Assembly: GCF_033060595.1 (NCBI RefSeq)
Contig: NZ_CP133038.1
Coordinates: 372,001-436,000 of the forward strand
Source of the DNA: Pyramidobacter sp. YE332
GTDB taxonomy: Bacteria; Synergistota; Synergistia; Synergistales; Dethiosulfovibrionaceae
Direction of reading: 5' to 3'
Length of the DNA stretch: 64,000 nt
The notes under the pieces were generated by a model that searched no databases, was not told the origin of the DNA, and saw only the letters and a program-made list of their open reading frames with translations. Of this stretch, positions 5,740-50,039 are shown piece after piece. Numbering within the stretch: position 1 is the first letter of the stretch; every line of letters begins with the position of its first letter. The translations under genes were made by a program, and so were the position numbers.

Positions 5740-5826
5740 GTTTCAGGCCGGTATCCTGACTCGCGCGCAGCGCGCTCACAGTGGCGGGGCCGCTTTGGTC
5801 TTTCACCAAATTCCCCGGGCTGAAAC
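5740..5826 (-). ncRNA. Cobalamin riboswitch aptamer (compact form)
   Basis: Read on the minus strand, the region contains the signature blocks of the cobalamin aptamer in order: GGGGAAT, GGTGAAA, GCCCCGCCACTGT and GTCAGGATACCGGCC. A GTTTCAG/CTGAAAC pair closes both ends. The peripheral domains between CACTG and the distal AGGATACC block are very short, so this is a compact variant. It lies in the leader of mutA, which encodes part of a B12-dependent enzyme. That makes the assignment functionally coherent, although mut operons are less usual targets than B12 synthesis or transport genes. Confidence 0.9.
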
Positions 5827-11284: not shown

Positions 11285-11326
11285 GTTTTTTCCTCCTTCG
11301 CTCGTCCAATGCGACATGAATTCTGT

Positions 11327-11369
11327 AAAATCAGGCGCCGAAACTGAAGAGTCTCGGCGCCTGATTTTA
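11327..11369. terminator. Terminator between the duplicated binding-protein genes
   Basis: Arms AAAATCAGGCGCCGA / TCGGCGCCTGATTTT enclose a short loop, immediately past the stop of the upstream binding-protein gene. Confidence 0.8.
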
Positions 11370-11382
11370 TTGCCAGTGAATC

Positions 11383-23438: not shown

Positions 23439-23468
23439 ATGAATAGCGTAAAGGCAGGATTTGTTTTG

Positions 23469-24272
23469 ATGCTGGAAAACGAAGACATCATCAAAAGGAA
23501 ATACACGAATCAGTCGCTCCTTCGCGGATTGACAATTATGGAACAGTTTTTTAAATCATCTGATACGCTGGGGATCTCTGATCTTAGCCGACTTACAGGG
23601 CTTCATAAAAGCACCGTACACCGCCTCGTGACGACGCTGGAAGAATGCCGCTGGTTGCGCCGCACAAAAGGTGACCGTTTTCAGATTGGCATTAAACCGG
23701 TCATTCTCGGGCATAAGGGCGGTGATCAGGTTTCTTCACTGTCAATTACTCATGAATATCTTACGCAGTTACGCGATCATCTACAGGAAACAACTGTGCT
23801 GACAATGATGATCAACGACGAGACTACATGCGTCGATAAAGCCTCGTCGCACCAACGGCTTTCCTGTACATCTGAAATCGGACGCATTTATCCCTGCCAT
23901 GCCGGTGCGACAGGTTTTGCTGTTCTGCTTGGTATGGATGAAGAGGAAGCGAGGGCTCATCTTGAGCGTCATGAACTTGTTCGCTATACGGAACGAACTG
24001 TCACGGACATTGAACGGTTGATGGAACGTTATCGTCTGGAAAAAGCTCGCGGCTATTCGCTTGCCAGCGGTCAGGTCGATCCCGGTATTACGGGAATTGC
24101 TATGCCAATCTGGTTCCCAGCGGAAAACACTTACGGCAGTTTGGGTGTTGTCCTTCCCGATTATCGCAGTTCGCAAAAACGCATCAGTGAAATTGTTGAT
24201 GAAATGAATAAGACGCGTCTTAAAATTGAAGAAGCGATAACGCCTGGGCTGACATCATTAGGCGAAATTTAA
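23469..24272 (+). CDS. IclR-family transcriptional regulator
   Basis: 267-residue regulator. The N-terminal winged helix-turn-helix reads SLLRGLTIMEQF...LGISDLSRLTGLHKSTVHRLVTTLEE; the C-terminal IclR effector-binding (GAF-like) domain includes GRIYPCHAGATGFAVL and RGYSLASGQVDPGITGIAMPI. I chose ATG 23469; an in-frame ATG at 23439 lacks a ribosome site. It sits upstream of the ureide catabolic operon on the same strand, separated by a terminator, and is the obvious candidate for its local control. Base composition is lower in GC than the flanks, like the whole block. Confidence 0.92.
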   Translation: MLENEDIIKRKYTNQSLLRGLTIMEQFFKSSDTLGISDLSRLTGLHKSTVHRLVTTLEECRWLRRTKGDRFQIGIKPVILGHKGGDQVSSLSITHEYLTQLRDHLQETTVLTMMINDETTCVDKASSHQRLSCTSEIGRIYPCHAGATGFAVLLGMDEEEARAHLERHELVRYTERTVTDIERLMERYRLEKARGYSLASGQVDPGITGIAMPIWFPAENTYGSLGVVLPDYRSSQKRISEIVDEMNKTRLKIEEAITPGLTSLGEI

Positions 24273-24307
24273 TTCGTTTTGTCTGGGAAAACAATCATAT
24301 TGAGATT

Positions 24308-24357
24308 TAAGCCGACTTCAGAGGAAAGGGTTTCCTGCTGAAATCGGCTTATTTTTT
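24308..24357 (+). terminator. Intrinsic terminator after the IclR gene
   Basis: Arms AAGCCGACTTCAG / CTGAAATCGGCTT with a short inner AGGAAA/TTTCCT stem and six Ts after the distal arm. Confidence 0.85.
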
Positions 24358-24456
24358 ACCGTTTTCAGTGTTTCTTTAAAATACATCATATTTATATATT
24401 CCAAAACGCTCTAATGTTTTTTGACTGGTCGTCTATAAAAGTGGTTCTTTAAGTGT

Positions 24457-24500
24457 TATACTTGTCTCATACAATGATTTATCGTCTTAATAAATGAGAC
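24457..24500 (+). promoter_or_regulatory. Promoter/leader of the ureide operon with inverted repeat
   Basis: TATACT (24457-24462) is a good -10 without a clear -35, consistent with an activated promoter. It is followed at once by GTCTCAT (24464-24470) and its exact complement ATGAGAC (24494-24500), which could form a leader hairpin or a regulator site. Confidence 0.45.
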
Positions 24501-24518
24501 GTTAAGGTTGTGGGAAGT

Positions 24519-25897
24519 ATGAAAGTCGATCTATTGCTCAAAAATGCCGAGATTTTCAACGGAGAAGGCTTATATCGCGGTTGCCTTGGTATTTCGAAAG
24601 GGAAGATTGTTTCCCTTGGTCAAAATAACGTAACAGGTGTTGAAGAACTTGATGTTAAGGGTGCTTGGATTCTCCCTGGGGGGATTGAGACGCATGCTCA
24701 TATTCGTGAACCTGAACTGACACAGCGTGGCGATTTCGCTTCCGAATCGATCGCTGCTGCAGCCGGCGGTATCACCATTTTTTTGAAATGCCCATTTCCG
24801 CTCCACCCCAGGCAACTGTGGAAATTCTTCATCAGCGTGAACAAATCGCCGCTAAAAAGTCATGCGTTGATTTTGCGTTTTACGGTGCCGCTGCGGGCGG
24901 CGTACAAAATATTTACGAGCTCGCACAGGCAGGCGTGATCGGCTTTAAAATTTTTCTTTTTGATGTAAACGGTCCGCGCGCCAAGGAATTCATTGCTTCG
25001 ACGGCGACTGATGACGGAGTTCTCATTGAGATTATGCAGGCTGTCGCTGCAACTGGCAAAATTTTGGCTGTGCATGCTGAAAATGGCCCAATAGCTTCAT
25101 GGTATACCCGACGTTTGCAAAATGAACCGCAACGGTCTCCTCTACAACTTCACGCTCAATCACGGCCGTCGGTTTGTGAAGTTCAAGCTGTGGAGAAAAT
25201 AATACGTTTTGCTCGGGAATATGGCACACGCGTCAGCTTCTGCCATATTTCCTGCAATGATTCTATGCATCTGATCGCGCGGGCAAAGGCTGAGGGCTTA
25301 GACGTATATGCTGAAACCTGTCCGCAGTACCTTTATCTTGATTATGAGAGAGCCGATCAACTCGGTTATGGGCCATACGCAAAATATAATCCGCCTATCC
25401 GTTCTTGTGCGGAACGAAAACAATTATGGAAATGGTTGTATCGAGGACAGTTCGATTACGTCGGCAGCGACCATGGAGCGTTTTTGCCTGAAGAAAAGCT
25501 TCCAGGTGAAAAAAATATTTTCAAGGCTCCCGCTGGCAATGTCGGTTTTGAGACTCGTTTGCCGCTGATGCTTGAATCTGTCCTCAACGGCAATTTGATG
25601 CTGAAGGATGTTGTCCAACTGACGTCAGCCAATGCCGCTAGAGTTTTCGGATTGTACCCGCAAAAAGGTGCGCTGCTTCCCGGTTCTGACGCAGATCTTG
25701 TTGTAGTCGACCCGCGCATTGAAGTCTGTCCGTCATGCGAGAATACGCTTTCGCATGGTAAAGCCATTGCCCGTCTCTACGAACAATGGAGACTGCATGG
25801 CAAAATTCTTCATACGTTGGTTCGCGGCAAATTTGTTTTTAAAGACGGCGCGCCGATTCCATGCATGCAGGGTTGGGGGAGAGAAGTGCTTGTTTAG
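24519..25897 (+). pseudogene. Dihydropyrimidinase/allantoinase-like amidohydrolase, frameshifted
   Basis: The product reads as a full-length cyclic amidohydrolase (about 459 residues) only if the frame is changed once. The 5' part (to about 24785) gives GIETHAHIREP, the metal motif. The 3' part (from about 24785, in the frame of ATG 24788) gives MPISAPPQATVE, the carbamylated-lysine region GFKIFLF, VHAENG, FCHISCND and YVGSDHG. The break falls in a run of seven Ts (24778-24784); eight would restore the frame as ITIFFEMP. It is paralogous to the intact gene directly downstream. It may be a true null, a slippage-prone gene or a sequencing undercall. Confidence 0.85.
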
Positions 25898-25962
25898 TTT
25901 TTCTGTTCAATTTCCGTTTTCTGCGGATGTTGATAAAAATAAATTTTTAAGGAGGGGTTTCT

Positions 25963-27348
25963 ATGGTAAAGGTGGATTTGGTAGTACATAACGCACAGGT
26001 CTACTCAAGCGGCACCGTCTTCCACGGTGGCATCGCGATCGCAAACGAGAAAATTGTTGATGTTTGTGCCGATGATTACCTGCCCGAGGCGTATCGGGAG
26101 ATCGATGCCCAGAACAGACTTCTGCTTCCTGGCATTGTCGACACTCACGTGCATGTACGCGATCCCGGGCATATTGAACGCGGAGATTTTGAATCAGAAT
26201 CAGCGGCAGCGGCGAACGCCGGCGTAACGGCATTCCTTGAGCATCCTATTTCCACTCCTCCTCCTTATACGCCTGAAATTCTTGCCAAACGTATTGAGCG
26301 TGCTAAGTCCCGCTGTATCGTAGACTATGCGTTTTTCGGTGCGGCTGGTTCCGAGTTTCCGCAGGAAGCCGAGCGTGTTGCCAAAGAGGGCATTGTCGCC
26401 TTTAAAACGTTCCTTCACGAAGCTCCCGAAGGGCGTGACGAAGAGTTCCGCGGTTTGACTATGCCCAACGACGGCGGCATCATGGAAGGCTTCGAAGCCG
26501 TTGCAAAAACTGGATTGATTCTCACTGTCCATGCGGAGAACAACGACATGATCAAACGTTTGATTACCAAATTCCGCGCTGAAGGCAAAGTTGGCTGGGG
26601 GTATCATTGCCCTTCACGCCCTAAAATCAGTGAAATCGAATGCATTGAAAAGCTGATTCGCGTTGCCCGCGAAACTGGAGTTCGCCTAGCCATCGCACAC
26701 ATTTCCACGCCGGAAGCGATGGAGCTTTTAAAACAGGCTCGTCTGGCCGGACAGGAAGTTTATATTGAAACTTGCCCGCATTATCTGATTCTCACGGAAG
26801 ATGCCTTGCTGAAATACGGCCCCATGGCCAAGTGCAATCCTCCGCTTCGCAGTGCCACTGACCGAGACAAACTGTGGAAGTATGTCAAAGACGGCACCGT
26901 CGACTACATCGGTAGCGACCATGGTTCCTTCCTGCTTGCTGAAAAGGAGAAAGGTAACAAGGATATCTTCACTGCTGCGGCTGGTTCTGCCTGCATCGAA
27001 ATGACGCTGCCACTGATGCTGACGGCTGTACGCGATGGCAAGCTGACACTACCCAGACTGATGCAGTTGATCTGCGAAAATCCTGCTCGTATTTTCGGCT
27101 TGAAAACCAAGGGGGGGCTGATCCCTGGTAAAGACGGTGATTTCGTAATCTGCGACACCAGCAAGGAATTCACCGTTGATCACAACAAGTTCTTGACTCA
27201 CGGCCGAGGCATTTCCACGTGGTACGACGGTATGAAGTTGATTGGCAAACCCGAAATGACCTGCGTCCGCGGACGTGTTGTGATGGAGAACGGCATTGTT
27301 GATCATGGTGCCAAAGGTTGGGGTAGACTGATTCGTCACGGGGAGTGA
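25963..27348 (+). CDS. Dihydropyrimidinase/hydantoinase/allantoinase family amidohydrolase
   Basis: 461-residue zinc amidohydrolase that opens cyclic amide rings (hydantoins, dihydropyrimidines or allantoin). All expected metal and catalytic residues are visible: H62-V-H64, Lys148 (AFKTF, carbamylated bridging lysine), H190 (VHAEN), H246 (AHIS) and D319 (GSDHG). SD AAGGAGG before the ATG. It lies between the frameshifted paralogue and the racemase, whose ATG starts 3 bases after this stop. Substrate choice (hydantoin versus allantoin) cannot be decided from sequence. Confidence 0.92.
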   Translation: MVKVDLVVHNAQVYSSGTVFHGGIAIANEKIVDVCADDYLPEAYREIDAQNRLLLPGIVDTHVHVRDPGHIERGDFESESAAAANAGVTAFLEHPISTPPPYTPEILAKRIERAKSRCIVDYAFFGAAGSEFPQEAERVAKEGIVAFKTFLHEAPEGRDEEFRGLTMPNDGGIMEGFEAVAKTGLILTVHAENNDMIKRLITKFRAEGKVGWGYHCPSRPKISEIECIEKLIRVARETGVRLAIAHISTPEAMELLKQARLAGQEVYIETCPHYLILTEDALLKYGPMAKCNPPLRSATDRDKLWKYVKDGTVDYIGSDHGSFLLAEKEKGNKDIFTAAAGSACIEMTLPLMLTAVRDGKLTLPRLMQLICENPARIFGLKTKGGLIPGKDGDFVICDTSKEFTVDHNKFLTHGRGISTWYDGMKLIGKPEMTCVRGRVVMENGIVDHGAKGWGRLIRHGE

Positions 27349-27351
27349 CAT

Positions 27352-28032
27352 ATGCGCATTCTTATTATCAACCCTAACAGCAGCAGGGCAGGAACCGAAG
27401 TTATTGACAAAATTGCCAAGCAGTATGCCGATGGCCGCTTTGAGGTTGCAACAGTTTCAACTCCTGGTGCAGCTCCATTTGTCGTAACATTTGAAGATTA
27501 TGCTCGTTCTATACCTGGCATGGTGCAGTTGCTCAAAGACAATTACGATAAATTTGATGCCTTTGTGATTGCCTGCCACAGTGACCCCAATCTGGAGCTG
27601 CTCAAGGAAATTTCAGCCAAACCGGTTGTTGGCATTTGTGAGGCATCCGTAAAGATTGCCTCAATGCTTGGCGATAAATTCTCCGTTATCTCCCCTGGCA
27701 AACGCAGTATTCCTAATAAGGCCGCAATGATCCGCGACCGTTTCCGCATGGGTGGTTATCTTGCTTCCGTGCGTGCCCCTGAAAAAACGGCCATGGAAGG
27801 AACGGATATAAAGACTTTGCTAATGCCCGAAGCGAAACGTGCCATTGAAGAAGACGGTGCGGAAGTCATCGTGCTCGGTTGTGCAGAATTTGCAGGACTT
27901 GACAAGGCGATGAGCAAGGAACTTCACGTTCCCGTGCTTGACGGTACAGTGTGCGCTTTGATGGTCGCTGAAGGGCTCGTCAATGCCGGATACAGTACCA
28001 GCAAGCGCTGTCGTTTCAAACCTAATGATTGA
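27352..28032 (+). CDS. Asp/Glu/hydantoin racemase family protein
   Basis: 226-residue racemase of the hydantoin/allantoin racemase type, with the N-terminal INPNSS signature and paired catalytic cysteines C75 (ACHSDP) and C177 (LGCAEF). It would interconvert ureide enantiomers so that stereospecific hydrolases can consume both. Directly follows the amidohydrolase (3-base gap) and precedes the TRAP genes. Confidence 0.92.
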   Translation: MRILIINPNSSRAGTEVIDKIAKQYADGRFEVATVSTPGAAPFVVTFEDYARSIPGMVQLLKDNYDKFDAFVIACHSDPNLELLKEISAKPVVGICEASVKIASMLGDKFSVISPGKRSIPNKAAMIRDRFRMGGYLASVRAPEKTAMEGTDIKTLLMPEAKRAIEEDGAEVIVLGCAEFAGLDKAMSKELHVPVLDGTVCALMVAEGLVNAGYSTSKRCRFKPND

Positions 28033-28065
28033 TTCGTAGAAACTATCTGACAGGAGGCTATAGTT

Positions 28066-29076
28066 ATGACAATGTTTCGCCGCGTAACTCTCGCATGTGC
28101 AGCGTTCGTTCTGATCGGAGCTTCCGCTGTTTCTGCCCGCGAGCTCGTACTTGGCCATACCGGTCAACCTTCGGTTACGTTCTCCGGCGTTGGACTCCAG
28201 TTTTCCGATAAGGTCAAAGAACTTTCCGGCGGAGAACTGACCGTTTCCGTCATGGGCGCTTCTGCTCTTGGCAACAACCGCGAAGGCATTGAACAGATTC
28301 AACAGGGCATGACCGACTTCTGGTTAATCTCCACGGGCCTTTTGGCTCCTTTCTCAAATACAGTCTCGATCTTCGACCTCCCTTATCTGTTCAAGAGCGA
28401 GAAAGCCGCGCTGGCTTTTATGGATAGCGATGTTGCGAGAGAGATCGTTGCTCCGCTTGAGGAGAAAGGCATCAAAGCTCTTGGTTATTTCCCCATGGGC
28501 TGGAGACACATTCACAGCAATATTGCCATCCGTAAGCCTGAACAGTTGAAGGGCGTGAAGATTCGTACGGAGCCCGCTCCCATTCGTATGGCCATTTTCA
28601 ATGCGATGGGTGCTAGCGCTATCCCTATGGATTTCGGCGAAGTGTTTACCTCTCTACAACAGGGCGTTATCGATGCTGGTGAGCAGCCCCTTGAAAACAT
28701 TAAGTCGCAGGGGTTTGACACTATTCAGGAATACATTACGCTTGACGGACATATTCTTGACCCGATGCTGCTCGTTATGTCAAAAATTACTTGGGAAAGC
28801 CTGAACGAGAAAGAACAGCGTTGGGTTACGGAAGCTGCGAAATTTGCCTGCGATTGGGGGCGTGAAAATATATTCGGCAACAGCAAGAAACTGCTTGAGG
28901 CATACAAGGCCGGCACGCAGAACATTATCATCGAGCTGACCAATGAAGAACGCGAAGCATTCCGCAAGGCAACGCAGCCAGTTTATGATGAATTCCTCGA
29001 GAAAGTTGGCAAAGATACATACGATAAGATCATGAAGATTCAGGAGTCCTTCCCCGCGGAATCTCCTCAGAACTAG
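28066..29076 (+). CDS. dctP: TRAP transporter substrate-binding protein DctP
   Basis: 336-residue periplasmic binding protein of the DctP family with a signal peptide (cut near SARE, about residue 24). It has the family core RTEPAPIRMAIFNAMGASAIPMDF and the SLQQGVIDAGEQPLENI segment near residue 205. SD AGGAGG upstream. Placed between racemase and DctQM, it probably captures the ureide or carbamoyl compound that the operon degrades. Confidence 0.94.
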   Translation: MTMFRRVTLACAAFVLIGASAVSARELVLGHTGQPSVTFSGVGLQFSDKVKELSGGELTVSVMGASALGNNREGIEQIQQGMTDFWLISTGLLAPFSNTVSIFDLPYLFKSEKAALAFMDSDVAREIVAPLEEKGIKALGYFPMGWRHIHSNIAIRKPEQLKGVKIRTEPAPIRMAIFNAMGASAIPMDFGEVFTSLQQGVIDAGEQPLENIKSQGFDTIQEYITLDGHILDPMLLVMSKITWESLNEKEQRWVTEAAKFACDWGRENIFGNSKKLLEAYKAGTQNIIIELTNEEREAFRKATQPVYDEFLEKVGKDTYDKIMKIQESFPAESPQN

Positions 29077-29091
29077 TTTTCATCGTCAGGA

Positions 29092-29116
29092 GGCGGAAAG
29101 GAGTCCCTTTCCGCCT
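29092..29116 (+). terminator. Intercistronic hairpin between dctP and dctQ
   Basis: Perfect GGCGGAAAGG / CCTTTCCGCC stem followed by TTTTCC. Probably a leaky terminator or mRNA stabiliser that lets the binding protein be made in excess over the membrane subunits. Confidence 0.6.
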
Positions 29117-29153
29117 TTTCCATAGATTGCCAATATCCTGGAGGTATAAAAAT

Positions 29154-29660
29154 ATGAAACTCTTGAGGCTGTTTGACGATTACCTTGAAGAGGCTGTCGT
29201 TGTCATCTTATTTCTCATGATCCTTGTCGTTGGTACTGAACAGGTTATCACTCGTTATTTGTTGCATTTCGTCTTTAGCTGGGCAGAAGAACTGATGCGC
29301 ATTTGCTTTGTGATTCTGGCGCTGTTCAGTTTCTCTCTTTGTGCCAAAAAGCTTGAGCACGTTAAGGTAGAAGCGCTCCTTACAGTTCTGCCTAAACGCT
29401 TGGGGACTTTTATTAAAGTCTTTTCCTCTACGGTCTTTCTTGCCTTTACGATTCTTTTAATCCAGCATTCATGGAGCATTATGAGTCTTCAATACCGTAG
29501 CCATCAGGTCACAGCAGCTATGGGAATTCCGACATGGACATATTTTGTTTTTGGTCCCATGTGTTTCACTATTATGGCGTTCCGCATCATCCAGAAATCC
29601 ATTATTCCTCAAATAAAAGAGTTTTTCTCTTTCGGAGATAAAAAAGGAGATGATCGCTAA
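29154..29660 (+). CDS. dctQ: TRAP transporter small permease DctQ
   Basis: 168-residue inner-membrane protein with four hydrophobic helices, as in the DctQ family (first helix around AVVVILFLMILVV, then FSWAEELMRICFVILALF). The start at 29154 follows CTGGAGGT. Its last codons overlap the DctM start (TAATG), indicating coupled translation. Confidence 0.9.
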   Translation: MKLLRLFDDYLEEAVVVILFLMILVVGTEQVITRYLLHFVFSWAEELMRICFVILALFSFSLCAKKLEHVKVEALLTVLPKRLGTFIKVFSSTVFLAFTILLIQHSWSIMSLQYRSHQVTAAMGIPTWTYFVFGPMCFTIMAFRIIQKSIIPQIKEFFSFGDKKGDDR

Positions 29661-30931
29661 TGTTACTCGCCGTCTTCGGTACCATGTTTCTGGCACTGCT
29701 TTTGACGATCCCCATTGCGGCGACCATTGGTCTGAGCTGCATCGCGTTCACTCCGTGGGTCCCCGGCGGTCTAGCAAAGGTGATGTTTTTTGTTGGTCAG
29801 CGTATGGTTGTTACTGCGGATTCATTTACACTTTTAGCGTTACCTTTTTTCATTCTTGCCGGTACGTTGATGTCACATGGTGGTATTGCCCGTCAGTTGA
29901 CTAACCTTGCCGAAGCTGTTTCCGGCGACTTTCCTGGTGGTCTTGGAATCTCTGCTGTCGTTGCTTGCACATTTTTCGCAGCCGTGTCCGGTTCAGGTCC
30001 CGCCACAGTTGCGGCGATCGGCGCAATTATGCTGCCGACAATGTTGGAACGAGGTTATGACGTCGGCTTTTCTGGCGGCTTAATAGCCTGTGCCGGCGGC
30101 ATTGGTGTGCTGATTCCCCCCAGCGTTCCGATGATTGTTTACGGTGTTAACTGTAATGTGTCCATCACCGATCTGTTCGTCGCTGGCATTGTACCCGGAA
30201 TTATTGTTGCCGTGTTTCTGATCATTCCCACGATTATCATCGCTCGCAAACATCATTTTGTTGGCAAACCCCGCGGCGGTAACTGGCTGTGGGTGTTGGA
30301 AAAAATCTGGCAGGCTAAGACAGCCCTGCTGATGCCGATTATTATCCTTGGCGGTATTTACTGCGGTATTTTCACGCCTACCGAGGCTGGTATTGTTGCC
30401 GTTGTTTACGCCATGGTGCTCGGTTTCTGCACACGTCAGCTTTCCTTCCAGGGACTGATCAAAGCACTTGTTGAAGCGGCTGTAATCACCGGTTCTTGCA
30501 TTTTCCTGATGGGAGCAGCGAGTGCTTTCGCTAAACTGTTGCACATGCGCAGCGTTCCGACGCTGATCTCCAATCTAATCCTTGGTATTACGAGCAGCAA
30601 GGTTATTATCCTTCTGCTCTTGAACGTCCTGTTCCTATTAGGCGGCATGTTTATCGATACCTTGTCCAATATTCTGATTTTTTGTCCTATTTTCCTGCCG
30701 CTGGTTACCAAGCTCGGCGTCAATCCCATTCATTTTGGTGTCCTTGTTATCTCCAATCTGGCGCTTGGGATGGCTACGCCTCCCATGGGAGTTGATCTGT
30801 TCGTTGCGGCCAATATTGCCCATGCACCGTTTGAAAGGATTCTTAAGGGGGCAATCCCCTTTATGCTCTGGAACTTGACCGGCGTTTTGCTGATCACGTA
30901 CGTTCCATTCCTGTCACTGTGGCCTTTCTAG
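29660..30931 (+). CDS. dctM: TRAP transporter large permease DctM
   Basis: 423-residue, multi-spanning large subunit of the sodium-driven TRAP transporter. Family signatures include PFFILAGTLMSHGGIARQL, VSGSGPATVAAIGAIMLP and GGLIACAGGIGVLIPPSVPM near residue 135. The ATG overlaps the dctQ stop. Completes the DctPQM set. Confidence 0.95.
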   Translation: MLLAVFGTMFLALLLTIPIAATIGLSCIAFTPWVPGGLAKVMFFVGQRMVVTADSFTLLALPFFILAGTLMSHGGIARQLTNLAEAVSGDFPGGLGISAVVACTFFAAVSGSGPATVAAIGAIMLPTMLERGYDVGFSGGLIACAGGIGVLIPPSVPMIVYGVNCNVSITDLFVAGIVPGIIVAVFLIIPTIIIARKHHFVGKPRGGNWLWVLEKIWQAKTALLMPIIILGGIYCGIFTPTEAGIVAVVYAMVLGFCTRQLSFQGLIKALVEAAVITGSCIFLMGAASAFAKLLHMRSVPTLISNLILGITSSKVIILLLLNVLFLLGGMFIDTLSNILIFCPIFLPLVTKLGVNPIHFGVLVISNLALGMATPPMGVDLFVAANIAHAPFERILKGAIPFMLWNLTGVLLITYVPFLSLWPF

Positions 30932-30959
30932 CAGGAAATGCAAAAAAGGGGGCATTGTT

Positions 30960-32162
30960 ATGATCAAGATTAATGACAAACGCTTTCTGAATAACTTCTT
31001 CGGCCTGGCGAAAATCGGCTGGTCCGAAGCGGGCTTGAATCGTCCTTCATATAGTCCTGCCTATGCCGAGGGACGTGATTACGTGAAGAAAAAGATGGAA
31101 GATGCCGGCATGAAAGTCCGTGTAGATACAATCGGCAACATTTATGGACGATATGGTGGGACTGATCCGACACGCAAAACAATCCTCGTCGGATCGCATC
31201 TTGATTCAGTTCCTAACGGCGGCATCTATGACGGTGCATTGGGAGTCTTGGGAGGCATCGAAGCCTTGCAGTCTCTTCATGAAAAGTTCGGCTCTCTGTC
31301 AGCTCCGATTGAAGTTGTCGGCTTCATCGCCGAAGAAGCGAGTTTGTTTGGGGGGACATTTGGCAGCCGTGCAATTACTGGACTGGCGCCTTTGAATCAG
31401 CCGGAAGAAGCGTTTAAGTGGTCAGGGTTAACTTGTGATGATCTTGTCAATGCCCGTATCAAGATTGACGATTACGGTGCGTATCTTGAGTTGCATATCG
31501 AACAGGGGCCCGTACTGGAACGCAAAAATTTGGAAATCGGTATTCCTACCGGCATCGTCAGTATTATCCGCTATAAAATCACAATGAACGGACAGCAAAA
31601 TCATGCAGGCACGACACCAATGTCAGAGCGCAAAAATGCGATGCGTCCGGCATCAGAACTGTTAACACGATGGTTTGCTTGGGCCGATGAACGTCTTGTG
31701 AAAAAAGATAACTTTGTTTACAACACTGGCGTATTTATCCTCGATCCTAATTCGCCGGCTGTTGTCCCCGGCAAGGCATCTTTTGTCATGGAATTGCGTT
31801 CTTTGTCAGATAAAGTTGGTGATGAGTTAGTTGCAAAGCTTCATGAGATGGTAAACGCTTCCGAGTATGCCGCATACTCTCCTACAATCGAAAAGATAGT
31901 CAATAAAGCTCCTGTTGCTCTGCACGAGAATATCATTGCTACAATTGAACAAGCGGTAAAGAGGTGCGGCTATGCTTATCAGCGTATGCCCAGCGGTGCG
32001 TCGCATGATGCCGTAGCTATGGCACACTTTATGCCTACCGGCATGATTTTCGTAAAGAGTCATGACGGCATTAGTCATAACAGAGCTGAATTTACTACCG
32101 ATGAAGATATGCTCAAGGGTGTTCAGGTCCTGACAGAGACGGTCGCTCTGTTGGCAGAGTAG
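30960..32162 (+). CDS. M20 family N-carbamoyl-L-amino acid hydrolase/allantoate amidohydrolase
   Basis: 400-residue binuclear-zinc amidase of the hydantoinase/carbamoylase family (M20). Metal ligands are visible at H80 (GSHLDSV), D91 (YDGALG) and E126 (AEEASLF). The dimerisation domain has GQQNHAGTTPMSERKNA near residue 215, and the C-terminal metal histidine lies in SGASHDAVAMA. It would hydrolyse the carbamoyl (or allantoate) product of the upstream ring-opening enzyme. SD AAAGGGGG before ATG. Confidence 0.94.
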   Translation: MIKINDKRFLNNFFGLAKIGWSEAGLNRPSYSPAYAEGRDYVKKKMEDAGMKVRVDTIGNIYGRYGGTDPTRKTILVGSHLDSVPNGGIYDGALGVLGGIEALQSLHEKFGSLSAPIEVVGFIAEEASLFGGTFGSRAITGLAPLNQPEEAFKWSGLTCDDLVNARIKIDDYGAYLELHIEQGPVLERKNLEIGIPTGIVSIIRYKITMNGQQNHAGTTPMSERKNAMRPASELLTRWFAWADERLVKKDNFVYNTGVFILDPNSPAVVPGKASFVMELRSLSDKVGDELVAKLHEMVNASEYAAYSPTIEKIVNKAPVALHENIIATIEQAVKRCGYAYQRMPSGASHDAVAMAHFMPTGMIFVKSHDGISHNRAEFTTDEDMLKGVQVLTETVALLAE

Positions 32163-32214
32163 CTAATTTAATCAATAAAGAAATATATAAAATTATAATG
32201 AGAGGGGATTTTGC

Positions 32215-32322
32215 ATGAGCGAGATCATTCCGACATCCCTTTATGTTTTCTGGGGATTTTTTGCGGTTCTGTGTATTTGCCCAATTGTGTGTCTTGCTGT
32301 GAAATTACTAAAAAAGGGGTAG
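32215..32322 (+). CDS. 35-residue single-pass membrane peptide preceding the symporter
   Basis: A short frame with an excellent Shine-Dalgarno (AGAGGGG, 7 bases before ATG) encodes MSEIIPTSLYVFWGFF, one hydrophobic helix (about residues 9-30), then a basic tail KLLKKG. It starts 52 bases after the carbamoylase and ends 44 bases before the sodium:solute symporter. Small membrane proteins encoded next to SSS-family symporters are known in other bacteria, so it may be an accessory subunit. No homologue can be named. Confidence 0.65.
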   Translation: MSEIIPTSLYVFWGFFAVLCICPIVCLAVKLLKKG

Positions 32323-32366
32323 GTTCTCGTCAATTTCTATATGCTCTGAAAAGGAGATGAAAATCT

Positions 32367-33800
32367 ATGGAATTAACCGTTTGTATTATTGTTTTTCTGA
32401 TCCTGCTTTTTCTGATCGGACTTTTTGTTTCTAAACGCATTAAAAACGATCAGGATTGGTTCGTTGCAGGACGCAACCTTGGTGTTGTTCCACTGGTCGG
32501 TACGTACTTTGCCACAATTATCAGCACTGTTTCTGTTATCGGTTATTTTGGCTATTACTATAGCTATGGTTGGGCTGGCTGGTGGAACTGGGCTGGTACG
32601 GCTTTGACATCAATGATTGCGGCTCTATGGTTTGCTGAGAAACTGCGCAAGTTTGGTCAGACAACGCTGCCCGATCTTCTCGCTGCCCGTTATGGCAAAG
32701 CTCACAGCATTATTGCCGGTGTTGTCATTCTTGTTGCCATGTTGTTCTTTACCTCTGCACAACTGACTGGTTCCGCAGCCGTAGTCACAACGTCTATGGG
32801 TATAGATCGCACGACAGCAATTATCGTTATTGGGATAATCTTCATCCTTTTTACCGTGATGGGCGGTATGGAAGCCGTCGCTTGGACAGACACCTTTTGT
32901 AGTGCCATCATTCTTATCGGCGTGTGGTTACTGAGCTATAACGCTGTTAACGAAGCAGGCGGTGTTGTAAAAATCCATAAAACACTTGCACAGATAAAAC
33001 CTAGCGCACTTGATCCATTTGCCAACGGTGCCATTCCATTGGGTGTAGCCATGTCATGGTTCTTGACATGGGGTATCGGTAATATCGGAGCGCCGCAGTT
33101 CAGTACGAGAATTTATTCTGCAAAGGATCCTAAAACTGCTGCTCTGAGCCAGGCATGGACGGGTGTTACTTTTATCTTTTTCTATTTGCCGCTGATGCTC
33201 GCTGCGCTGGCCAGCATTGTCCTTTTCCCCGGATTGACAGGGGTTGCTGATACCTATGCTCCGACAATCATTCAAAAAGTGATGGGGCCTTGGGGCGGCG
33301 GTATCATGATGGCCGGTATTCTTGCGGCCTCAATTTCAACAGCGGATTCCGTGTTGCTGCTCGCAGGAACCACTTTTGTACGCGACATTGTGCAGCGTTG
33401 CAGTTCTAGACAGTTCATGCCCCAGCAGACGTTGAAGATGGCTCGCATCACTACGTTCATCATCGGCATTCTAGCAATTTTCTTCACCATACACACTAAT
33501 CAGGGTGTTATGTGGGTTCAGGCTAATGCTGTCGGCTATATGGGGTCGATGCTCTCTGTCGTTGTACTGGCAGCTTTTGCGTGGAAACGAGCCAATGCTC
33601 AGGGCGCTCTTGCCGCAATGATTGTTGGCATTCTTACGGCAGCCATCTGGGGCTATTTGAATAGACCGTTCGGCTGGTTTCCCATCTTACCTTCACTGTT
33701 CACCTGCACGTTGACCTTGGTAATTGTCAGTAAGTTGACCCCACCTCCTTCTCAAAAGTTATTGATCAGTTTTTCAAAGAGTAGTTGTTTAATATTATAG
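32367..33800 (+). CDS. Sodium:solute symporter (SSS family)
   Basis: 477-residue secondary transporter with about 13 transmembrane helices. Recognisable features are DQDWFVAGRNLG near residue 29, the helix with GTYFATIISTVSVIGYFGYYYSYG, the conserved SGWFLTWGIGNIGAPQ-like segment near residue 230 and AASISTADSVLLLAGTTFVRDI near residue 325, where SSS proteins bind sodium. Last intact gene of the ureide block and a second uptake route besides TRAP. SD AAGGAGAT. The C-terminus (TPPPSQKLL) is normal for the family. Confidence 0.93.
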   Translation: MELTVCIIVFLILLFLIGLFVSKRIKNDQDWFVAGRNLGVVPLVGTYFATIISTVSVIGYFGYYYSYGWAGWWNWAGTALTSMIAALWFAEKLRKFGQTTLPDLLAARYGKAHSIIAGVVILVAMLFFTSAQLTGSAAVVTTSMGIDRTTAIIVIGIIFILFTVMGGMEAVAWTDTFCSAIILIGVWLLSYNAVNEAGGVVKIHKTLAQIKPSALDPFANGAIPLGVAMSWFLTWGIGNIGAPQFSTRIYSAKDPKTAALSQAWTGVTFIFFYLPLMLAALASIVLFPGLTGVADTYAPTIIQKVMGPWGGGIMMAGILAASISTADSVLLLAGTTFVRDIVQRCSSRQFMPQQTLKMARITTFIIGILAIFFTIHTNQGVMWVQANAVGYMGSMLSVVVLAAFAWKRANAQGALAAMIVGILTAAIWGYLNRPFGWFPILPSLFTCTLTLVIVSKLTPPPSQKLLISFSKSSCLIL

Positions 33801-35501: not shown

Positions 35502-36884
35502 ATGTCGAAAAGGAATTATCCCTACATTCCCAACTCCGATCCGGCCGTTCAGGCGGAGATGCTCAAGTTCATCGGGGCGGAATCCATCGACGAGCTGATC
35601 GGGCAGAACATTCCTCGGGAGCTGCTCATGAAGGAGCCGCTCAAACTTCCGCAGCCTTACGCGGCGGAGTGCGATCTTGTCCGCCATGTCTCGGGAATTC
35701 TGAACAAGGACAAGACGGCCAGCGAAATGACCTGCTTCCTCGGCGCGGGCTGTTATAACCGCTATGTTCCAGCGCTGGTGGACGAGGTGATCAACCGCTC
35801 CGAGTTCCTTTCGGCCTACGCCGGCGAGCCGTACGAGGATCACGGTCGCTTCCAGGCCTGTTTCGAGTACGAGAGCATGATGGCCGAGCTGCTGGACTGC
35901 GACGTGGTCAACGTGCCCAACTATGACGGTTCGCAGGCCGCGGGCACGGCGCTGCGCATGGCGACGCGCGTGACGAAGCGCGACGAAGTGCTGATCCCGG
36001 CAACGCTGAATCCCGACGTGGCGCGCGCCGTGAAGACGTATCTGCATCCCGACGTGAAGGTGACGACCGTCGCTTACGATCGCGGGACCGGCCGTCTCGA
36101 CCTGAGCGACCTCGAGGCGAAGCTGAGCGGTGCGACCGCGGCGGTAATGGTGATGAATCCCAACTTCTTCGGCGTCGTCGAGGAAGAGGCGTCTCGGATC
36201 GCCGATCTGGCGCACGCGGCCGGGGCGTTGTCCGTCGTTTACGCCGAACCTTCGACGCTGGGCGTGATGAAGCCGCCCTTCCAATACGGCGCCGACCTTG
36301 CCTGCGGCGACATCCAGGCGCTGGGCATCCACATGAACTACGGCGGCGGCGTGGGCGGCTACATGGCCGCCAAGGACCGGCCCGAGATCGTGCGCGAGTA
36401 TCCTTCGCGCCTGTTCGGCCTGGCTCCGACGACTCACGGCGAATGGGGCTTCGGCGACGTGATGTGGGAGCGCACCTCGTTCGCCGTCCGCGACCGCGCC
36501 AAGGAATTCGTCGGCACGCACGCGGCGCTGTGGAGCATCGGCGCGGCGGTGTACCTCGCCAGCCTCGGGCCGAAGGGCATGCAGGAACTGGGCAAGACCA
36601 TTTTGCAGCGCGCCCTGCTGTTGCGCAAGCGCCTGAGCGCCGTGAAGGGGCTGACGGTCTGCCCGCTGAGCGGCGCGACGTTCCAGGAGTTCGTCGTGCG
36701 CTTCGAGAACAAAACCGTCGCCGAAGTCAACGCGGCGCTTTTGAAAAAGAATATTCTCGGCGGCTTCGATTTGAGCAGGGACTTCCCCGAACTGGGGCAA
36801 TGCGCGCTGCTGTGCGTTACCGAGCGCACGGGCGAAGACGATGTGGACGCGCTGGCCGCCGCTCTTGCGGAAATCCTCGCCTGA
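35502..36884 (+). CDS. gcvPA: Glycine dehydrogenase (decarboxylating) subunit 1-like protein
   Basis: 460-residue fold-type I PLP-family protein homologous to the N-terminal half of glycine cleavage P-protein: IPNSDPAVQAEMLKFIG start, FLGAGCYNRYVPALVDE, ASMMAELL-type segment, NVPNYDGSQAAGTALRMA, GGGVGGYMAAK. It is divergent where canonical GcvPA reads REKATSNICTN: here the stretch is RDRAKEFVGTHAALWSIG. SD AAGGAGG. Paired with the gcvPB-like gene 22 bases later. No gcvH or gcvT is in the window, so it may act on a substrate other than glycine. Confidence 0.88.
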   Translation: MSKRNYPYIPNSDPAVQAEMLKFIGAESIDELIGQNIPRELLMKEPLKLPQPYAAECDLVRHVSGILNKDKTASEMTCFLGAGCYNRYVPALVDEVINRSEFLSAYAGEPYEDHGRFQACFEYESMMAELLDCDVVNVPNYDGSQAAGTALRMATRVTKRDEVLIPATLNPDVARAVKTYLHPDVKVTTVAYDRGTGRLDLSDLEAKLSGATAAVMVMNPNFFGVVEEEASRIADLAHAAGALSVVYAEPSTLGVMKPPFQYGADLACGDIQALGIHMNYGGGVGGYMAAKDRPEIVREYPSRLFGLAPTTHGEWGFGDVMWERTSFAVRDRAKEFVGTHAALWSIGAAVYLASLGPKGMQELGKTILQRALLLRKRLSAVKGLTVCPLSGATFQEFVVRFENKTVAEVNAALLKKNILGGFDLSRDFPELGQCALLCVTERTGEDDVDALAAALAEILA

Positions 36885-36906
36885 GGGACGGAAAGGAAGG
36901 ATCGTC

Positions 36907-38496
36907 ATGGATAAAATCGCAGACAAAAGAGACACCCGACTGGATCGTTTCCATCAGGCGAGCTGGAACGAGCCGATCATTTACGAGTTGAGCGTGAAGG
37001 GCGAGCGCGGCGTGCTGGTTCCGGAAGTTTCGCCAGCCGCCGCGGCCGAAGCGGGCGACGGCGTTTCCAGTCTGCCCGAGTGCATGAGGCGCGAAACCGC
37101 GCCCGACCTGCCGGAGATCGGCCAGCCGCAGCTGGCCCGTCACTACAACCATCTGGCGCAGGAGAACCTCGGCGTGGACAGCAACATCGACATCGGCCAG
37201 GGCACCTGCACGATGAAGTACAGCCCCAAGGTGAACGACCGCCTCGCCGGCTGTCCCAAGGTGGCCGACATGCATCCGCTGCAGCCGGACGGCACGGCGC
37301 AGGGCATTCTCGAAATCGTCTGGCGTCTGGGCGAGCTGTTCAAGGAAATTTCCGGACTCGACTGCTTCAGCATCCAGCCCGGCGGCGGCGCGCACGGCAT
37401 CCTCGCCATGGCGTCGGTGGTGCGCGCCTACTGGGAAGCCAAGGGCGAAAACGACCGCGACACCGTCGTCACCACGTTCTTCTCGCACCCCGCCGACGCG
37501 GCCTGCCCGATCGTCAAGGGCTACAAAGCCGTCGTGCTGCCTCCCGACGCCGAGGGGCTGCCCGACATCGAAGCTTTCAAGGCGACGCTGAAAAACAACA
37601 AGGTCGCCGCCATCTTCATGACCAATCCCGAAGACACCGGCATCTTCAACCGCCGCATCCGCGAGTTCACGCGGCTGGCTCACGAAGCCGGCGCGATCTG
37701 CTGCTACGATCAGGCCAACGCCAACGGCCTGCTGGGCATCACCCGCACCGTCGAGGCCGACTTCGACATGTCGTTCTTCAACCTGCACAAGACCTTCTCG
37801 TCGCCGCACGGCTGCGGCGGCCCCGCCGTCGGCATGGTGACCTGCCGCAAAGAACTGCGCTCCTATTTGCCCGCGCCGCTGGTCGAACACAGCGGGGAGA
37901 AAGGCTATTACCTCGATTTCGACCTGCCCCGCAGCTGCGGCAAGGTCAAGTCCTTCTGGGGCGTCGCGCCCGTGGCGGTGCGCGCCTACGCTTGGATCAT
38001 GAGCCTCGGCGCGGAAGGTCTGCGCGAGGTGAGCCGCGTGGCGATCCTCAACAACAACTACTGCATGAAAAAGATCCTCGCCATCAAAGGCGCGTCGATC
38101 AGTTTCCCCAATCACAAACCGCGTATCGAGCAGGTCCGTTACAGCTGGGAACAGCTCAAAAAGGACACCGGCTTCGGCACCGCCGACTTCTCGCGGCGCA
38201 TCCCCGATTACGGCACGCATTACTGGAGCAGCCACGAACCGTGGGTGATCCCCGAACCGTTCACGATCGAGCCCAGCGAGTCGTACAGCAAGCGCGACCT
38301 CGACGCCTACTGCGAGATCCTCGCCGCCATCGCGCGCGAGTGCTACGAACAGCCCGAGGTCATCCGCGAAGCGCCTCTGAACAGCACCGTGCACCATACC
38401 AGCCACGATTATTTCGACGACCCCGACAAGTGGGTGCTGTCGTGGCGCAATTACAAGCAGAAGTACACAGGCTATTTCCAGCCGAAAAAGAAGTAG
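36907..38496 (+). CDS. gcvPB: Glycine dehydrogenase (decarboxylating) subunit 2-like protein
   Basis: 529-residue C-terminal-half homologue of P-protein that carries the PLP site. The Schiff-base lysine is K295 in FNLHKTFSSPHGCGGP, with the preceding NPEDTGIFN and YDQANANGLLG segments. The start at 36907 follows GGAAAGGAAGG; an upstream in-frame ATG (36841) lies inside gcvPA and is rejected. Compared with standard GcvPB, the C-terminal third (RRIPDYGTHYWSSHEPWVIPEP) is distinct and the protein is longer than usual. The next gene begins at the adjacent base. Confidence 0.9.
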   Translation: MDKIADKRDTRLDRFHQASWNEPIIYELSVKGERGVLVPEVSPAAAAEAGDGVSSLPECMRRETAPDLPEIGQPQLARHYNHLAQENLGVDSNIDIGQGTCTMKYSPKVNDRLAGCPKVADMHPLQPDGTAQGILEIVWRLGELFKEISGLDCFSIQPGGGAHGILAMASVVRAYWEAKGENDRDTVVTTFFSHPADAACPIVKGYKAVVLPPDAEGLPDIEAFKATLKNNKVAAIFMTNPEDTGIFNRRIREFTRLAHEAGAICCYDQANANGLLGITRTVEADFDMSFFNLHKTFSSPHGCGGPAVGMVTCRKELRSYLPAPLVEHSGEKGYYLDFDLPRSCGKVKSFWGVAPVAVRAYAWIMSLGAEGLREVSRVAILNNNYCMKKILAIKGASISFPNHKPRIEQVRYSWEQLKKDTGFGTADFSRRIPDYGTHYWSSHEPWVIPEPFTIEPSESYSKRDLDAYCEILAAIARECYEQPEVIREAPLNSTVHHTSHDYFDDPDKWVLSWRNYKQKYTGYFQPKKK

Positions 38497-39608
38497 ATGA
38501 GAATCGGTTTTCTCGTCAATCCCGTGGCGGGAATGGGCGGTTCCGTGGCGCTGAAGGGCACCGACGGGGCGGAAACGCTCCGCCGCGCCCGCGCGCTCGG
38601 CGCCGTGCCCCGCGCCGCGGAGCGCATGGCGCAGGCTTTGGACGCCGCCCTGCTGCTGCCTGACGGCGTTGGTTTTCTCGCCTGCTGCGGCGAAATGGGA
38701 GAAGCGCTTTTGAAAGAACGGCGGCTTTCGTACGAGACCGTGTACCGTCCGGCAGGCGAAACCGGGGCCGCCGACACGCGCGCGGCCGTTAAGGCCATGG
38801 TCGCCGCCGGAGCGGAACTAATCTTCTTCGCTGGCGGCGACGGCACGGCCCGCGACGTCTGCGCGGCGACGGAAGGCGCGGACATCCCCGTGATCGGCGT
38901 ACCGGCGGGCGTGAAGATCCATTCGGCGGTCTACGGCGTCACGCCGGTGCGCGCCGGGCAGCTGTTGCGCAAATTTGCCTCCGGTGGCGTGAAGGAGCTG
39001 GGCGACGCCGAAGTGATGGACATCGACGAAGACGCTTTCCGCCGCGGCACGGTCAACGCTCGCCTTTACGGCTACCTGAAAGTGCCGCTGGACCGCGGCT
39101 GCCTGCAGGACCGCAAATCAGGCGGCGCGAACCCCGACGCCTACGACCGCTCGGCCATCGCCGCCTGGGCGGCGGAGCACATGGCCCCGGGCGTCTGTAT
39201 CTGATCGGTTCGGGCACCACCACTCAGGCCATTATGGACGAGCTGAAGCTCCCCGGCACGCTGCTGGGCGTCGACGCCGTCAAGGACCGCCGCCTCGTCG
39301 CCGCCGACCTGACGGAGCGCCAGCTCCTCGACCTGGTCGAGCCGGGCAACACCACGCTGATCGTCACCGTCATCGGCGGCCAAGGGCACATCTTCGGCCG
39401 CGGCAACCAGCAGATCAGCCCCGCCGTGTTGCGCCGCGTCGGCGTGGAGAACGTGACGGTCGTCGCCACGCCGGCCAAGCTGATCGGCCTGTTCCCCAAG
39501 CCCCTGCTCGTGGACACCGGCGACCCCGAACTCGACCGCCGGTTCGCCGGCTACGCCGCCGTGGTGACCGGCTACGACCGCCGCCAGATGTGCCGCGTGG
39601 AGTGCTGA
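38497..39608 (+). pseudogene. ATP-NAD kinase/AcoX-like protein, interrupted by a single frameshift
   Basis: The coding sequence reads as a ~370-residue AcoX/diacylglycerol-kinase-like NAD kinase-family protein: FLVNPVAGMGGSVALKGTDG at the start, FFAGGDGTARDV near residue 110, VPAGVKIHSAVYGV, then GSGTTTQAIMDEL after the break, VTVIGGQGHIFGRGNQQISP and a C-terminal GYDRRQM. The zero frame stops at 39204. The continuation runs in another frame from about 39170. One extra G in the CCCCGGG run (39165-39175 area) would restore the frame as APGRLYLIGSG. It starts immediately at the gcvPB stop, so it is part of that operon. Confidence 0.85.
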
Positions 39609-40463: not shown

Positions 40464-40517
40464 AAGAACAATAAACGTCCTTCCCGTTTTTTCACGGGAA
40501 GGACGTTTATTGTTCTT
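40464..40517. terminator. 24-bp perfect bidirectional terminator
   Basis: Arms of 24 matched bases (40464-40487 and 40494-40517, core AAACGTCCTTCCCGT) around a 6-base loop. It ends inside the stop codon of the convergent SecB-like gene. Confidence 0.9.
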
Positions 40518-40941
40518 AGTCGTTTGCTGAGGGCTGCTCCATGGGCTTCATCTGCGAAGGATCCATGGGCGGCAGGATGACGGGCGTGGGCAGGTTGGCC
40601 AGCGACACGAGCTGGCTGATCATAGCGCGCACATAGGGCAGCAACATGGTCATGCCGTTGTCCTTGAGGATCGCCTCGCGGTCGGCGCCTTCGGCGTCGA
40701 TGAAGAACACGCCGGTGACGTCGGCGATGATCTCGAATGGATAGTTGTTGTTCTCGGCGTCGTCGAACACGGTGACGCGGATGTTGAGGAACGTCGGCTC
40801 CTTGGGCGTGGCGCTCATGCGCACGCGCTGATCCAGTTTGATGGAAAGGGGGAGGTTCTCGTCCTTCTTGGGCTGAAAGTGGTGATTCATGTCGAACTGC
40901 AGGCTCTCGGCGCGAAAATCGGCAAGGCGGATCTCGTTCAT
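40516..40941 (-). CDS. SecB-like protein-export chaperone
   Basis: 141-residue SecB-family protein. It has the beta-rich N-terminal part (NEIRLADFRAESLQFDM) and the highly typical C-terminal block LLPYVRAMISQLVSLANLPTPVILPPMD, matching SecB's LFPYAR...LPP signature. SecB tetramers hold unfolded preproteins for SecA. The start at 40941 has AAAGGAG 9 bases before; a GTG two codons earlier is too close to that site. Presence supports an organism with an outer membrane. Monocistronic. Confidence 0.8.
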   Translation of the reverse strand: MNEIRLADFRAESLQFDMNHHFQPKKDENLPLSIKLDQRVRMSATPKEPTFLNIRVTVFDDAENNNYPFEIIADVTGVFFIDAEGADREAILKDNGMTMLLPYVRAMISQLVSLANLPTPVILPPMDPSQMKPMEQPSAND

Positions 40942-41246
40942 AAACACAGGCTCCTTTAGGGGAAAAGTTTAGGATGGAAAATGGTGCGCGGCATGCTGCC
41001 GCCCATTATAACACGGATCGCTCAAAATCCAAGGGAGATCGTTCAAGGCGAAAGGGGAGCAATGCGGGGAGAAGGCTCGAAAGTCGGCCCGTGTCGGGCG
41101 AAAGGAGCGACGGACGGAATCTCCGAAAAGGAAGTGTCTTATTTGTTATGACCGGAAAAGCCAGCCAATCGACGCTGATGGATGTATAAAACGCACAAAT
41201 CAAGAATGTGATTTCGAGCGCTTTATCTAGAAATGTTATAGTCCTC
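40942..41246. other. Intergenic region between the SecB-like gene and grdA
   Basis: No credible gene on either strand. A frame on the minus strand that runs through grdA is only its shadow. The minus-strand promoter of the SecB-like gene and the upstream part of the grdA promoter must lie here. A TTATAA-rich stretch near 41235 is the only other visible element. Confidence 0.4.
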
Positions 41247-41274
41247 TTGCGGGAAAGAAAAATTTGGTTATAAT
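41247..41274 (+). promoter_or_regulatory. Promoter of grdA
   Basis: TTGCGG (41247-41252), 16-base spacer and a consensus TATAAT (41269-41274), 35 bases before the grdA start codon. Confidence 0.75.
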
Positions 41275-41308
41275 GAACCCAGAACATCAAAAGAAGGAGG
41301 TGCGACTT

Positions 41309-41785
41309 ATGGGCAAACTCGCAGGCAAGAAATTGATCCTTCTCGGCGAGCGCGACGGTGTACCTGCGCCTGCTATGAAGGCTTGCTTTGAGAACAGTGG
41401 AGCCGAAGTCGTCTTCGAAGCAACGGAGTGCTTCGTCTGAACGGCTGCCGGAGCCATGGACTTGCAGAACCAGCAGCGCGTCAAGGATTGCGCTGAGAAG
41501 TACGGTGCTGAGAACTGCGTGGTCATTTTCGGTTCGTCCGACGCCGAAGGCGCCGAGATTTACGCCGAAACCGTGACCAACGGAGATCCCACCTTTGCAG
41601 GTCCCCTGGCCGGCGTCCCGTTGGGACTCGCCGTTTATGACATCTTCGATGAAGAGATTCGTGCTGAAGCTGATCCCAAGGCGTGGGAGGAGCAGATTTC
41701 CATGATGGAGATGGTGCTCGATCCCGAGGCGCTCGCCGCTGCCGTCAAAGGCATCCGCGATCAGTATTCCAAGTACAAGCTGTAA
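41309..41785 (+). CDS. grdA: Glycine/sarcosine/betaine reductase selenoprotein A (GrdA), UGA = selenocysteine
   Basis: Small redox selenoprotein of the glycine reductase complex; it carries the carboxymethyl-selenoether intermediate to protein C. The frame from ATG 41309 (SD AAGGAGGTG) meets an in-frame TGA at 41438-41440, codon 44, in [16 protein letters not shown]. This is the canonical Cys-x-x-Sec site of GrdA, and the frame then continues to TAA at 41785, giving 158 residues, the usual family length. A gene caller ignoring recoding would report only a 109-residue fragment from 41456. The sequence just 3' of the TGA could form a short CTGC/GCAG hairpin, as a bacterial SECIS should. It stands alone here; grdB/C/D/E/X are not in the window. 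Confidence 0.97.
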
Positions 41786-41802
41786 TAAGAGCCTGTCAAA
41801 CA

Positions 41803-41850
41803 AGCCGGTCCATGGACGAACGTTCATGGACCGGTTTGCTGTTTCGACAA
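41803..41850 (+). terminator. Hairpin terminator after grdA
   Basis: Stem CCGGTCCATG / CATGGACCGG around GACGAACGTT, extended by imperfect AAAC/GTTT pairs. The T-tract is weak. Confidence 0.6.
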
Positions 41851-48779: not shown

Positions 48780-50039
48780 ATGGACAAGAACAGCGACAAG
48801 TACATCCGGGACGTTGACGCCGAGATCGCCGACATCATTATCGAAGAGTACCGCCGCCAGAACCACCAGATCGAGCTGATCGCCTCCGAGAACTTCACCT
48901 CGCGCGCCGTCATGGCGGCGATGGGCTCCGTGCTCACCAACAAGTACGCCGAAGGCTACCCCGCCAAACGCTACTACGGCGGCTGCGAAGTCGTCGATAA
49001 GGCCGAAAACCTCGCCCGCGACCGCGCCAAGAAACTCTTCGGCTGCGACCACGTCAACGTCCAGCCCCACGCCGGCAGCCAGGCCAACATGGCCGTCTAC
49101 TTCTCCCAGCTCCAGCCCGGCGACACCATCCTGGCCATGAACCTCACCGATGGCGGACACCTCACCCACGGCTCCCCCGTCAACTTCTCCGGCAGACTCT
49201 ACAACGTCGTCCCCTACGGCGTCAGCCGCGACACCGAGACCATCGACTTCGACCAGGTGCGCGAGCTTGCCCGCAAGCATCATCCCAAGATGATCGTCTG
49301 CGGCGCCAGCGCCTACCCCCGCATCATCGACGCGTCGAAATTCCGCGAGATCGCCGACGAAGTCGGGGCCCTCGTCATGTTCGACATCGCCCACATCGCC
49401 GGCCTCGTCGCCGCCGGAGTCCATCCCAATCCCGTGCCCTACTGCGACTTCGTCACCACCACCACCCACAAGACCCTGCGCGGCCCCCGCGGCGGCATGG
49501 TCATGTGCAAAGAACAGTACGCCAAGAAACTCGACTCCGCCATCTTCCCCGGCATGCAGGGCGGCCCCCTCATGCACATCATCGCCGCCAAAGCCGTCGC
49601 CTTCGCCGAAGCCCTCAGACCCGAGTTCAAGACCTACCAGCAGAACATCGTCGGCAACTGCAAACACCTTGCCGAAAAGATGATGGAGAAAGGCTTCCGC
49701 CTCGTCTCCGGCGGCACCGACAACCACCTGATCCTCGTCGACCTGACCAGCAAAGGCGTGACCGGCAAACAGGCGCAGATCGCGCTCGACCAGGCCGGCA
49801 TCACCGTCAACCGCAACACCATCCCGTTCGAGACCCTGAGCCCGATGGTGACCAGCGGCGTGCGCATCGGCACGGCGGCGGCGACCACGCGCGGCTTCGG
49901 CCGCGAGGAAATGGAGAAGATCGCCGGCTGGATCGACCGCGTGGTCACCCACATCGACGACGAAGCGGAGATCGGGAAAGTCCGCGCCGAGATCACCGAA
50001 CTCTGCGAGGCGAAACCGCTCTATCCCGGGCTGTATTGA
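48780..50039 (+). CDS. glyA: Serine hydroxymethyltransferase
   Basis: 419-residue PLP enzyme that interconverts serine and glycine with tetrahydrofolate. Complete family signatures: [11 protein letters not shown] near residue 32, [17 protein letters not shown], and the PLP lysine K231 in [14 protein letters not shown], then HPNPVPYCD and a C-terminal TPLYPGLY-like end. Codon use is strongly biased to C-ending codons, suggesting high expression. Links serine to the glycine pool used by glycine reductase and P-protein. Confidence 0.98.

Follow-up and report, generated by a model that had tools for sequence, protein, structure and literature searches.

GrdA is a classic selenoprotein. The locus described here in Pyramidobacter sp. 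YE332 raises the question of whether a reading frame interrupted by TGA at its codon 44 encodes a functional GrdA with selenocysteine (Sec) at that position, and which substrates such a protein would serve. The gene lies in a window of 64,000 nucleotides, the whole stretch of DNA that was analysed, in a genome of 2,795,328 bases on two contigs, the larger being 2,777,081 bases. The source of the strain is cattle rumen (PMC11008178). We consider it very probable (about 0.97) that the gene is a functional grdA, with Sec insertion at UGA 44, the chemistry of its family, and one GrdA for five substrate-specific B modules.

A genuine grdA with TGA at codon 44

Translated with TGA as Sec, the frame runs from the ATG at 41309 to a TAA ending at 41785, and U44 falls within CFV-U-TAAGAM (Table 1). 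The coordinates, the TGA at codon 44, the C-x-x-U motif and the length of 158 residues given in an earlier sequence-only reading are all right, and the strong ribosome site that it noted is found upstream of the ATG. When TGA is treated as a stop, the gene call yields only the ORF 41456-41785, the 109-residue fragment past the Sec codon that had been anticipated. The full translation covers profile positions 1-147 of 147 in Pfam GRDA (PF04723) and matches over its full length the NCBIfam equivalog reduct_selen_A (NF040748), the dedicated model for GrdA. Since the family match lies on both sides of the TGA, grdA is not a pair of chance ORFs. The AlphaFold model of the protein is confident (pLDDT 92). 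Searched by sequence against solved structures, GrdA gave weak matches only (best E 0.24), and a fold search of the model against the PDB gave zero matches at E <= 0.001. The stretch 41309-41785 is a genuine GrdA gene, its product an ordinary selenoprotein of a known family. As is already well known, correct annotation of grdA requires the TGA to be read as Sec.

GrdA is present in 132 of the 188 Synergistota genomes searched, and each full-length GrdA among the matches listed contains exactly one TGA. A second assembly of the same species has its single TGA at the same codon, and the residues ECFV-U-T(A/S)AGAM around the Sec codon are identical (as TAAGAM or TSAGAM) in 48 of 48 aligned GrdA loci. 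The invariant TGA fits a 2006 survey in which no Cys form of GrdA was reported (PMC1794560). Conservation of the TGA in these relatives, including the second same-species assembly, excludes that it is a sequencing error or arose as a stop by chance; it also excludes the TGC or frameshift at codon 44 that the earlier reading had named as refuting. A true stop or an error would leave a pseudogene, or the 109-residue C-terminal part only. It would agree with the TGA-as-stop gene call and with the frame-split genes elsewhere in the assembly (window 38497-39608; grdI), which point to indels or decayed genes. This explanation is, however, refuted by sequence conservation and retains practically no weight, the match on both sides of the TGA and the Sec machinery encoded in the genome also standing against it.

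Table 1. Features of the grdA locus and of related loci in the YE332 genome (positions are those of the window unless another sequence label precedes them)
Feature	Position	Strand	Evidence or remark
grdA, selenoprotein A of the glycine/sarcosine/betaine reductase complex, 158 aa	41309..41785	+	PF04723 E 2.5e-75; NF040748 258.8 bits (cut-off 130)
In-frame TGA, codon 44 (predicted Sec), CxxU motif CFVU	41438..41440	+	TGA-as-Sec translation; relatives' alignment
Shine-Dalgarno AAGGAGGTG	41294..41302	+	6 nt 5' of grdA ATG; direct reading
Expected bacterial SECIS position in grdA	41441..41485	+	Best hairpin -13.2 kcal/mol
TATAAT, possible -10 box	41269..41274	+	Direct reading; without matching -35
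Hairpin directly 3' of grdA, probable transcription end	41794..41849	+	-33.6 kcal/mol, z -5.9
Divergent SecB-like gene, left border of grdA unit	40516..40947	-	PF02556 24.4 bits, just below cut-off of 26
selA	C1:1811654-1813018		Sec machinery; selB adjoining
tRNA-Sec (selC), anticodon TCA	C1:1467886-1467980		ARAGORN
selD	C1:603411-604343		Own in-frame TGA in SGUAAKIG
Glycine module	C1:737776		GrdB equivalog 648.6 bits (cut-off 602.2); grdX and thioredoxin gene upstream
Betaine-type module	C1:2111763		Best model GrdH; BCCT transporter adjacent
Frame-split grdI of betaine-type module	C1:2112845-2114139 (L020:10334-11059, 11077-11613)	-	Intact in same-species genome G118
B module over no substrate-specific cut-off	C1:75483		Sodium:neurotransmitter symporter downstream
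Fluoroacetate-reductase-type modules (far loci 1 and 2)	C1:360298, C1:2654066		FarE partners 935.5 and 808.2 bits (NF053623, cut-off 675)
GrdC, GrdD	~C1:1158400-1160900		652 and 562 bits, over cut-offs
Low-GC segment with far locus 2, ~7 kb	C1:2651223-2658189 (L021:7724-14690)		~46-58% GC, flanks 63-68%
TetR and Cys-GrdB half, two overlapping genes, far locus 1	L018:10309-11750	-	
TetR-GrdB half fusion, 524 aa, far locus 2	C1:2651414-2652985 (L021:7915-9486)	-	
Cys-only GrdB halves	L018:10312-11130; L021:7915-8721	-	TIGR01918 'selenoprotein B' 179 and 188 bits (cut-off 65.45)

Selenocysteine decoding and SECIS elements

A search for selA, selB, selC and selD, suggested by the sequence-only reading, found all four in the genome. 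Its claim that the organism decodes UGA as Sec is supported by this machinery and the conserved TGA; its further claim that glycine, sarcosine or betaine is reduced needs refining, as GrdA alone does not reveal which substrate is used. Reading of UGA as an ordinary amino acid (code 4 or 25) would also produce an in-frame TGA, but it deserves next to no credence, since TGA is the ordinary stop of many genes called in the window, the in-frame TGAs found here fall in the known selenoproteins GrdA, GrdB and SelD, and tRNA-Sec (TCA), selA, selB and selD are encoded. Under Sec recoding, SelB and tRNA-Sec would insert Sec at UGA 44 and so complete the CxxU motif that serves selenoprotein A as its redox centre. 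Sec at residue 44 is a prediction from sequence.

Folding of the bases after the grdA TGA, proposed as a further check, does give a hairpin, though one no more stable than coding background: its z score is -0.7, and 40% of coding 45-mers are equally or more stable. Single-sequence folding, RNAalifold on 43 distinct sequences and a helix scan revealed nothing beyond codon constraint at the expected SECIS position of grdA. The protein leaves the region after the UGA too little freedom to vary, and no helix there shows more conservation than the protein alone would enforce.

Downstream of the UGA in grdB, positions +13-17 and +23-27 form a stem that closes on an apical loop containing GG. It is paired in 100% of 110 cells over 22 distinct sequences, 14 of the cells being double changes, with a covariation score of 0.462 against a shuffled mean of 0.165; controls slid along the sequence reached at most 82% paired. 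Seven Cys-containing half-GrdB copies, which serve as an internal negative control, have largely lost the stem. A SECIS stem in grdB is therefore a prediction well supported by covariation.

Transcription unit and surroundings

With the divergent SecB-like gene to its left and the strong hairpin to its right, grdA is probably transcribed alone, as a monocistronic unit. A consensus scan of the grdA promoter did not find a complete sigma-70 site. The genome holds one copy of grdA, and the nearest GrdB-type gene is ~50 kb away. In several Synergistota relatives, e.g. G108, G109, G114, G136 and G137, grdA adjoins grdB, and the two genes frequently form one operon (PMC13188914).

Several other features of the window were recorded. 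Between convergent genes at 40464-40514 lies a very strong 24-bp hairpin (z -9.3), probably a two-way terminator. The genes gcvPA and gcvPB for the P-protein subunits of glycine cleavage (35502-38496, +) and a serine hydroxymethyltransferase gene (48780-50039, +), all glycine-related, are within 10 kb of grdA in separate units. Beside gcvPB, an ATP-NAD kinase gene is divided into an N-terminal and a C-terminal ORF in different frames, 38497-39204 and 39234-39608 (+), possibly by a frameshift or an assembly indel. About 10 kb at 23439-33800 (+) have 45-51% GC, compared with 60% for the genome, and encode an IclR protein, two amidohydrolases, an Asp/Glu/hydantoin racemase, a TRAP transporter (DctP/DctM), an M20 peptidase and a sodium:solute symporter; this segment looks like an acquired catabolic island. 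A cobalamin riboswitch (5738-5883, -, 52.7 bits) is located just 5' of methylmalonyl-CoA mutase genes.

Five B modules and one GrdA

The search for grdB with further in-frame UGA, also proposed from the sequence, found five grdB-type genes in the genome. Their Sec-containing products share the motif [ST][TA]UG[TS], and the loci are scattered. The genome also encodes GrdE-type partners for them. The glycine module exceeds its equivalog cut-off, one module is betaine-type, one is unassigned and two are of the fluoroacetate-reductase type. These putative substrates are based on family scores and neighbouring transporters only. The grdI of the betaine-type module is frame-split in YE332, either by a strain mutation or by a PacBio indel.

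In this enzyme family, the substrate is bound by the B component, whose Sec picks up the carboxymethyl group and passes it to GrdA; GrdC/GrdD then release acetyl-phosphate. By analogy with the known family, GrdA of YE332 would receive this group from the Sec of whichever substrate-specific B component is at work and form a Se-carboxymethyl selenoether, GrdC and GrdD would turn this selenoether into acetyl-phosphate, and thioredoxin would re-reduce the enzyme. Because the genome contains a single grdA, we infer that this one unlinked GrdA is shared by all five modules. In the resulting physiological map, five interchangeable substrate modules would all draw on a single selenoprotein A.

Fluoroacetate-reductase-type loci and a low-GC island

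Work on Cloacibacillus porcorum MFA1 identified the far operon, which in that strain is induced thousands-fold by fluoroacetate and not by glycine (PMC10838667). Both FarE partners in YE332 are over the model cut-off, and the two FarB motifs, STUGTSSRCG and STUGTSSRGG, contain Sec without the CxxC of canonical GrdB. A homologue of farA (MFS) is present at far locus 2 only. The near-identical strain C12-8 is called a fluoroacetate degrader in a title in the reference list of PMC11008178.

The second locus resides on a low-GC segment that carries farA, farE and farB homologues together with the TetR-GrdB putative regulator. In the same-species genome G118, the flanks of this segment are on one contig, 285 bp apart, and the segment is absent at the site. 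It was either inserted in YE332 or lost from G118; its GC contrast with the flanks favours insertion. Lateral transfer of far genes has been proposed previously (PMC10838667). If the segment was inserted, detoxification of fluoroacetate, a plant and livestock poison, would have arrived as a mobile module.

These loci raise the alternative that GrdA here serves mainly fluoroacetate reduction rather than amino-acid reduction. Two FarE/FarB loci, one of them on the probably acquired island with a farA-like transporter, speak for it, as does the upregulation of grdA on fluoroacetate in C. porcorum (PMC10838667). However, the glycine module is canonical and intact, with its grdX and thioredoxin genes, GrdA occurs in far more Synergistota genomes than have far loci, and the medium used to isolate YE332 contained 10 mM glycine (PMC11008178). 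We regard a role mainly in fluoroacetate reduction as unlikely and prefer a GrdA that serves all five modules.

A possible TetR/Cys-GrdB switch

Both far loci of YE332 are flanked by a TetR protein and a C-terminal GrdB half in which Cys replaces Sec (STCGTSTRCG). The TetR part has the domains TetR_N and TetR_C_8, and in Foldseek its nearest structures are DhaS-type regulators (4mk6, E 8.4e-7; 2iu5, the DhaS structure, E 3.3e-6). The partner of DhaS is DhaQ, a non-catalytic protein paralogous to DhaK, the enzyme subunit to which the substrate binds. The literature search found no description of a link between TetR and GrdB.

The unfused pair flanks far genes in the Synergistota relatives G136, G137, G098, G118 and G116, and in a Lachnospiraceae-type MAG (L068) the TetR and Cys-GrdB half genes are divergent beside a farA homologue. 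The fusion at far locus 2 was seen in YE332 only, and its linker (residues 206-264) has pLDDT < 50 in the predicted structure. It could be an assembly artefact, because the genome was assembled from a single PacBio RS II run and has further genes that look frame-split. A candidate fusion in G136 was rejected on an ORF check, which gave two separate ORFs. Since the Cys-only halves pass the cut-off of the 'selenoprotein B' model, they are likely misnamed selenoproteins by automatic annotation.

By analogy with DhaS/DhaQ, it is plausible that the pair acts as a substrate-sensing co-regulator. More tentatively, and with the odds somewhat against it, the pair might be a fluoroacetate-sensing switch, in which the Cys of STCGTSTRCG would bind the substrate or be alkylated and the far genes would be turned on. 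Such a switch would be a catalytic domain turned sensor by Sec-to-Cys conversion, a selenoenzyme domain become regulator; it could explain strong fluoroacetate induction without glycine induction and supply a part for biosensors of this livestock poison.

Comparison with known systems

Like fluoroacetate reductase farACEB of C. porcorum MFA1, the YE332 loci combine FarE over the cut-off with FarB proteins that contain Sec and in which the first Cys of UxxCxxC, or both, are replaced, in agreement with the published description (PMC10838667). YE332 differs in having two loci in one genome, the second on an island, and in the TetR and Cys-GrdB half pair beside each locus, which is absent from the main text of that paper.

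GrdA of YE332 is the same as clostridial and Synergistota GrdA (PF04723, NF040748) in its length, its CxxU, its in-frame TGA and its full-length family match, whereas its gene is located away from grdB, grdE, grdC and grdD.

The closest parallel to the TetR/Cys-GrdB pair is DhaS/DhaQ of Lactococcus. Although the YE332 partner has no sequence relation to DhaQ, and one copy is fused, the TetR half is similarly DhaS-type in fold, and its partner stands to a substrate-binding subunit as DhaQ does to DhaK: it is a paralogue, here of half length and without Sec.
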